Under the pieces are notes generated by a model. That model was not told where the DNA came from and made no database searches. It saw only the letters and a program-made list of their open reading frames with translations. The position numbers and the translations under genes were made by a program. From contig JALVHV010000154.1 in the NCBI GenBank assembly GCA_027028845.1, positions 1 through 52,371 on the forward strand: 52,371 nt of DNA, read 5' to 3'. This DNA comes from Pyrodictiaceae archaeon (GTDB taxonomy: Archaea; Thermoproteota; Thermoprotei_A; Sulfolobales; Pyrodictiaceae). Within the stretch, counting starts at the first letter, position 1, and each line of letters starts with the position of its first letter. Positions 12,022-12,991 of the stretch are shown here, piece by piece.

Positions 12022-12064
12022 TAATCATACTCCTCGGGATTCTCTATGCTTACTAAGACATAGA

Positions 12065-12144
12065 TGTGTACCCGAGGTCGGACCCGGCGCCATATCGCCC
12101 CGAGGCCGGGGCTCATCTCGTCCGCCGGGCCACCACCCCTGGTA
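12065..12144 (-). ncRNA. Candidate H/ACA-type guide sRNA
   Basis: Minus-strand RNA UACCAGGGGUGGUGG-CCCGGCG-GACGAGAUGA-GCCCCG-GCCU-CGGGGC-GAUAUGG-CGCCGGG-UCCGACCUCGGGUACACA: 7-bp and 6-bp stems around an internal loop with GAUGA opposite GAU, lower stem UACC/GGUA, ACA 15 nt after the upper stem; TTTAACTA at 12072+93..100 (i.e. 12165-12172, minus) fits a TSS near 12144. Confidence 0.5.
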
Positions 12145-12163
12145 ATCATCGACTGTATCACTC

Positions 12164-12991
12164 CTAGTTAAAGACTTGGCTCGTTGAGAGAACACGGTCT
12201 CTGATCAGTTTGACTAAATGCATGTATAGATCGGAGTCACAGAAGAACAAGCTCTCTATGCAGATCGGTGTGATAACCACTTTTCCTTCAAGAAGCATTG
12301 CTACATCATTGTCTCCTTGAGTGCTGACTGGGGTACCGATTATCCTGTAATAGGTTTCGTTATTTGTGCTTTTTACGGGCTTAGCTAGTTGCTTGAAGCG
12401 TAGCTTCGCTGGCTTAGCAATAGCTATCTCTCTTGTTCTTATAGAGCGTGGGAAGTTAACGCTGAGAGCTTTAACTTGGTGAGGTAACTCCTTATTGAGC
12501 ACGAGGCTTGCTAGGCCACGTATAATCTTCTTAATAAAAATGCCGTGGCTCTTCACAAGTAGTTCAAAATCTTCCATGCTCCTGGTGTCCGCCGAGAATG
12601 CTATCCCAGGGACATCGTTCAGCGCTGCATGCATGATAGCACCTATTGTTGCCGACGCTAGTATTGATTGTAGGCTAGTATTATCCCCCATATTTATTCC
12701 GGAAAGAACTATGCTAGGTTTGCTCTCGCTGAGCGCTATGTAGACTGCATCGGCTGGTAGGCCATCAATTACTAGTGCATCTATGTTTCCCCAAAGAGTT
12801 ACTCGTCTCGCTTTGATGGGCTTATGGAGTGTCATTCCATGTCCACAAGCGCTCCGCGAGGCCTCGGGCACAATTATCTTTACTTCTCCTAGATCATGCA
12901 CAGCCTCGTATAGTAGGCGGAGCCCCGGGCTATCAGCTCCATCATCGTTTGTTAGTAGTATTCTTGCACGGGGGTAGCCTAGTTCTACCAT
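12164..12991 (-). CDS. surE: 5'/3'-nucleotidase SurE
   Basis: RILLTNDDGADSPGLRLL and PEASRSACGHGMTLHKPI signatures; SGINMGDNT. Confidence 0.95.
   Translation of the reverse strand: MVELGYPRARILLTNDDGADSPGLRLLYEAVHDLGEVKIIVPEASRSACGHGMTLHKPIKARRVTLWGNIDALVIDGLPADAVYIALSESKPSIVLSGINMGDNTSLQSILASATIGAIMHAALNDVPGIAFSADTRSMEDFELLVKSHGIFIKKIIRGLASLVLNKELPHQVKALSVNFPRSIRTREIAIAKPAKLRFKQLAKPVKSTNNETYYRIIGTPVSTQGDNDVAMLLEGKVVITPICIESLFFCDSDLYMHLVKLIRDRVLSTSQVFN

Follow-up and report, generated by a model that had tools for sequence, protein, structure and literature searches.

A small RNA (sRNA) gene adjoins surE in archaea of the Pyrodictiaceae. In the window, which is the whole stretch of 52,371 nucleotides analyzed here, the copy lies on the minus strand, flanked by surE and a small ferredoxin-like open reading frame (ORF). 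The element is a local GC island (GC content of 0.63 versus about 0.45 in the surroundings) containing only overlapping, spurious ORFs, in agreement with a preliminary description of a GC-rich island outside coding sequence. All stems and loops, the UACC/GGUA pairing, the ACA, and the TATA-like box named in that description are present on the minus strand where it placed them. The features of the locus are as follows.

12164-12991, minus strand: surE, flanking the sRNA element
12172-12165, minus strand: TATA-like box TTTAACTA, within the 3' end of surE; an A/T peak in most relatives
12065-12143, minus strand: H/ACA-like sRNA gene, core transcript; a sharp-edged conserved block in 16 genomes, with a fold z score of -3.6
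5' end near 12143 and 3' end at or just past the ACA box, minus strand: predicted ends of the sRNA
12131-12139, minus strand: 5' guide arm GGGGUGGUG, invariant in 16 Pyrodictiaceae, with nine of nine Watson-Crick pairs with tRNA-Ala
12130, minus strand: G closing the upper stem as a G·U pair with U12082, layer 1 of 10 (from the alignment)
12123-12129, minus strand: 5' strand of the upper stem, CCCGGCG; 99% of alignment cells paired, two pairs changed on both sides
12121-12122, minus strand: GA facing GG (12091-12090) at the canonical H/ACA K-turn position (from the alignment)
12113-12117, minus strand: GAUGA, contributing a GAU bulge and GA to the 5' side of an apical K-turn-like motif, invariant in 13 genomes
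12097-12112, minus strand: apical stem-loop GCCCCG...CGGGGC, variable in sequence, with the stem kept, including a C-G to G-C change
12095-12096, minus strand: GA completing the apical K-turn-like motif on its 3' side, invariant in 13 genomes
12083-12089, minus strand: 3' strand of the upper stem, CGCCGGG (from pair counts in the alignment)
12076-12081, minus strand: 3' guide arm CCGACC, pairing with G69, G68, C67, and, past an A·C66 mismatch, G65 and G64 (from the register test)
12074-12078, minus strand: ACCUC, 3' strand of the lower stem formed with GGGGU (12139-12135) in the free RNA; 98.8% of alignment cells paired
12065-12067, minus strand: ACA box, 14 nt after the closing U12082
11806-12021, minus strand: small ferredoxin-like ORF, on the other flank of the sRNA element

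Only the minus strand folds better than expected by chance: its 80-nt fold has a minimum free energy of -47.5 kcal/mol (z = -3.6), matched by none of 200 dinucleotide shuffles, whereas the plus-strand fold of the same 80 nt is ordinary (z = -0.95). The apical stem is formed by GCCCCG (12112-12107) and CGGGGC (12102-12097) of the minus strand. The GAUGA described earlier is found at 12117-12113, and the element facing it, previously taken as GAU, is entered here as GA (12096-12095). A further possible pairing joins CCUCGGG (12077-12071) to a CCCGAGG that shortly precedes the ferredoxin-like ORF (12077-12032, minus strand); a similar CCCGAGG occurs in genome G004, and most other relatives are without it.

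A BLASTN search of 20 Pyrodictiaceae genomes with window positions 12050-12165 matched the element in 15 (E ≤ 1e-3), and a covariance model confirmed a 16th copy, in G015. Every Pyrodictiaceae genome of at least 78% completeness carries the element; no copy was detected in G010, G012, G017, and G019, whose assemblies are 61 to 77% complete. The conserved block runs from GGGG to the ACA box, and the flanking DNA is unrelated among relatives. Among 229 genomes of the class, the covariance model adds only G028, G038, and G047, all in one other family of the order, and surE is absent from the surroundings of the two homologues checked in this second family. A weak hit in G090 (L110) from the same search is a false positive, overlapping a tRNA gene on the opposite strand. 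No Rfam family matches at gathering score, with only chance matches at E > 3; membership of a catalogued Rfam family is not a defining feature of an archaeal H/ACA guide sRNA. By sequence comparison, the element is a real H/ACA-like sRNA family without an Rfam entry, shared by the Pyrodictiaceae with a second family of the order.

In most Pyrodictiaceae genomes, the sRNA is encoded downstream of surE and in the same orientation. No surE gene adjoins it in G006 to G009 (surE being without a match or on another contig), indicating that the sRNA is an independent gene. A guide was sought downstream of surE in G019 and none was seen. An A/T-rich peak at a near-constant position in most relatives, 33 to 42 nt upstream of GGTGGTGG, has a mean A/T content of 0.72, against 0.4 to 0.5 around it in the alignment of relatives. 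The TATA-like box proposed earlier at 12165-12172 is therefore present as part of a positionally conserved A/T box, which supports the sRNA having its own promoter.

The stems of guides usually covary. In this family, the upper stem CCCGGCG/CGCCGGG and the lower stem GGGGU/ACCUC are paired in 99% of alignment cells, and compensatory changes among relatives affect both sides of two upper-stem pairs and one apical-stem pair (C-G to G-C). Covariation is positive but thin, as most stem positions never vary. The guide interpretation proposed in the preliminary description withstood comparison with relatives, among which the element is conserved. Its lower stem UACC/GGUA exists but is specific to the closest relatives, the conserved stem being GGGGU/ACCUC.

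Two GA tandems lie above the upper stem. GA/GA beside the stem, the canonical K-turn place and L7Ae site some 10 layers above the pocket, occurs in genus g8, G013, G018, G015, G038, and G047; the window and most members have GA/GG there and carry the apical GAU-GA/GA instead. In G038 and G047 (L107 1501-1588 and L109 1501-1588), canonical and apical tandems are both present, an apparent intermediate between the two Pyrodictiaceae arrangements as judged from the aligned sequences. The stem comprises 10 layers when the closing G·U pair and both tandem positions are included. The closing pair is G·U in 15 of 16 aligned Pyrodictiaceae and A·G in G006. The ACA box follows 14 nt after the G·U pair and 15 nt after the Watson-Crick stem, the latter being the spacing originally reported. 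ACA occurs at this offset in 11 of 13 genomes outside genus g8 and in G038 and G047; in the alignment, the box is absent in genus g8 and G028. Productive archaeal guides have 10 layers and an ACA spacing of 14 to 15 nt (PMC4652768).

The sRNA combines a hairpin with an internal pseudouridylation pocket, seen in both fold and alignment, an ACA box whose distance of 14 or 15 nt lies within the 14 to 16 nt expected between the pocket-closing stem and an ACA (ANA) box, compensatory changes among relatives, and a bipartite complementarity that leaves U70 and C71 of pre-tRNA-Ala unpaired, with a weak 3' arm containing one A·C mismatch. Identity as an H/ACA-type guide is largely supported by sequence features, namely, the fold, the ACA spacing of 14 to 15 nt, the GA tandems, the invariant arms, and the upstream A/T box. 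The cbf5 genes of Hyperthermus, Pyrodictium, and Pyrolobus are discussed in PMC2738675.

The guide type proposed earlier is supported, but its pocket register and target are not. The pocket exists, with a register one nucleotide away from that first given, since G12130·U12082 closes the 10-layer stem according to the published rule (PMC4652768); the arms are GGGGUGGUG and CCG(ACC) rather than GGUGGUGG and UCCGA. When the 16S and 23S rRNAs of four relatives were scanned for the target deduced from the first register, UCGGA-U-N-CCACC, nothing matched, even with G-U pairs allowed. Several registers were tried, the 10-layer register being the one fixed beforehand by the published rule, and 2,414 U sites were scanned in the tRNA loci, 16S and 23S rRNAs, RNase P RNA, and signal recognition particle (SRP) RNA of G014. 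The top target is U70 of all three tRNA-Ala isoacceptors, with a score of 37.5 compared with 25.6 for the best other site, so a tRNA complement, previously raised only as an alternative, gives the best fit. Shuffled arms reach 37.5 in 3 of 1,000 cases, making complementarity alone only moderately significant. RNase P and SRP RNAs of G014 gave no competitive match. The 23S site CGG-U-U-UGCUAC, among the best rRNA matches, was ruled out as expected by chance.

Pairing involves 5'-GGCCGG-U70-C71-CACCA-CCCC-3' of pre-tRNA-Ala, with CCGACC below the pocket and the 5' arm above it. The 5' arm forms Watson-Crick pairs at all nine positions with C72-A73-C74-C75-A76-CCCC in every tRNA-Ala of the guide-bearing genomes examined (-17.7 kcal/mol). 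Pairing of the 3' arm, CCG(A)CC, covers G69-G68-C67 and resumes at G65-G64 past a single A·C66 mismatch, which makes this duplex weak (-4.4 kcal/mol) and places it above the -6 kcal/mol cutoff used in PMC4652768. The pocket thereby holds U70 and C71 without partners, at a distance of 14 nt above the ACA box. The tRNA-Ala and rRNA genes are absent from the metagenome-assembled genome (MAG) containing the window, and its target is taken from the same-genus relatives G001 to G004.

GGUG and CCG, invariant in both families, face C72-C75 and C67-G69, respectively, the one exception in CCG being G001. This genome has CCA for CCG (a CCAACC arm) and hence a second 3'-arm mismatch; the compensatory U67 predicted for it was not found, and its tRNA-Ala keeps C67. 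In G006, both arms are kept despite the change of the closing pair to A·G, as expected if the closing layer makes no contact with the target. The guides of G038 and G028 place a C opposite A76 and do not pair with the trailer.

The trailer of tRNA-Ala is conserved together with the guide. Among tRNA-Ala genes fetched from other genomes, with only readable trailers counted, CCCC directly follows CCA in 34 of 34 Pyrodictiaceae tRNA-Ala genes versus 3 of 77 other tRNAs (Fisher P = 2e-25, a value that overstates independence, as the tRNA-Ala genes are related). A single genome can carry these genes at as many as three separate loci. All 32 distinct trailer sequences have C at positions +1 to +4, and the sequence is random from +6 on. 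In the second family, where the guide lacks GGGG, CCCC follows none of six tRNA-Ala genes; it also follows neither of the two tRNA-Ala genes of G010 and G019, in which no guide was found. G012 and G017, both incomplete assemblies, have CCCC trailers but yielded no guide. The tRNA-Ala(UGC) of G019 (L161, G019:C37:10474-10550) has the trailer CACCCC rather than CCCC, in an incomplete genome where the guide was not found. The tRNA-Ala(CGC) of G005 (L198, G005:C1:495901-496170) has masked bases from position 70, and its unreadable trailer was not counted. The leaders of Pyrodictiaceae tRNA-Ala (-7 to -1) are G-rich, with a final U in 30 of 31, and could form pairs with A73-C74-C75; in G014, the leaders of other tRNAs are similar. 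Pairing between leader and trailer could be a further source of trailer conservation, although conservation of the leader is far lower.

These sequence comparisons suggest that the sRNA is probably an H/ACA guide for pseudouridylation of U70, the alanine identity base, on pre-tRNA-Ala. The fuller reading, in which a dedicated guide of the Pyrodictiaceae converts U70 of the universal G3·U70 pair to pseudouridine and recognizes only the precursor through a CCCC trailer that has coevolved with the guide in all three isoacceptors, is modestly favored. The single-hairpin RNA would assemble with Cbf5, Nop10, Gar1, and L7Ae, and the resulting sRNP should pseudouridylate U70 while tRNA-Ala remains a precursor; in the 10-layer register, U70 of the G3·U70 pair would be the nucleotide isomerized. 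The CCCC trailer is probably a foothold from which the guide, acting ahead of trailer removal, opens the acceptor stem. The analysis demonstrates the conserved RNA, its fold, its complementarity to pre-tRNA-Ala, and the trailer conserved alongside it; we infer expression of the sRNA, RNP assembly, and U70 modification, together with any effect on aminoacylation.

The main rival to pocket-type guidance is antisense pairing, either as the mode of action itself or as a first contact that gives way to the pocket form by strand exchange. Through its 5' half, GGGGGUGGUGGCCCGGC, an antisense hairpin RNA would bind the trailer and 3' end of pre-tRNA-Ala to control 3' processing, charging, or folding of the precursor, its H/ACA appearance being secondary. 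The 5' half is indeed contiguously antisense, with 16 of 17 Watson-Crick pairs and the sole mismatch at U70 (4 of 2,000 shuffles reach 16), so the pairing need not be of the pocket type. Antisense action would also explain the near-invariant upper stem CCCGGC in two families, and contiguous pairing is preferred by RNAcofold at 37°C in a protein-free calculation; at 85°C, however, the same protein-free approach leaves the upper stem intact, with GGGGUGGUG paired to the end of the tRNA. The invariant mismatch, moreover, lands exactly on U70, and neither the conserved CCG of the 3' arm, the ACA at 14 nt, nor the GA tandems serve any role in plain antisense pairing. A purely antisense hairpin is therefore considered unlikely.

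Guidance toward a different RNA would retain the H/ACA identity. If the target were an mRNA or another sRNA, the tRNA-Ala match would be coincidental, arising because the arms are rich in G and the trailers in C, and the arms are indeed G-rich and equaled by the 3 in 1,000 shuffles given above; nevertheless, the near restriction of CCCC to tRNA-Ala genes and its absence where the guide lacks GGGG render this improbable. A conventional rRNA guide is likewise improbable. Its best candidate target, the U of GUCGGC-U-CUUCCCAUCCUGG in domain V of 23S rRNA (about Escherichia coli U2511), gives the top 23S match with long arms in all relatives tested, and the equivalent site is a pseudouridine in eukaryotes. 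However, 28 of 300 shuffled arms equal this match, a mismatch lies beside the target U, the register breaks the 10-layer rule, and the second family does not keep the arms beyond CCG. The site was ruled out as no better than shuffles, and the 9-layer core fits no rRNA site, even with G-U pairs. That the element is no functional RNA, but a chance fold or the read-through end of surE, is scarcely credible: the evidence comes from sequence alone, but conservation reaches far beyond that of the flanks, the element exists without a nearby surE in G006 to G009, and its stems show compensatory changes.

The G3-U70 pair was the first tRNA identity element to be discovered. It is the main alanine determinant, and the alanine identity set in a review has no archaeal entry (PMC9976931). 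No report of Ψ70 was found in the literature searched, in a search that was not exhaustive. Pseudouridylation of U70 by this sRNA would link the alanine code of hyperthermophiles with RNA-guided modification and give a function to the sequence of a tRNA 3' trailer. Ψ70 could stabilize the wobble pair, tune recognition by alanyl-tRNA synthetase (AlaRS), or act as a precursor checkpoint. The prediction concerns a single nucleotide and is directly testable in cultivable strains (Pyrolobus and Pyrodictium).

The sRNA shares with the archaeal H/ACA sRNAs of Pyrococcus (Pab/Pf) a pocketed hairpin, a 10-layer stem ending in GA pairs, an ACA 14 to 15 nt below the closing pair, and a short lower stem. 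Unlike those guides, it is predicted to target a tRNA acceptor end plus trailer, its 9- and 6-nt arms extend into the lower stem, its K-turn position is altered, and its upper stem is nearly invariant. The Pyrobaculum sRNAs sR201 to sR210 are likewise crenarchaeal single hairpins with a weak or missing lower stem and a variable ACA/NCA box, and sR207 also has a longer stem model (PMC4652768); they belong to another archaeal order and are compared by description only. That an archaeal H/ACA RNA can act on a pre-tRNA has a published precedent in Sso1, which guides Ψ35 formation in pre-tRNA-Tyr of Sulfolobales (PMC4652768, PMC7991803). Sso1 differs from the present sRNA in its tRNA, site, and arms, and its Ψ35 lies in the anticodon, where the guide replaces the missing enzyme aPus7.
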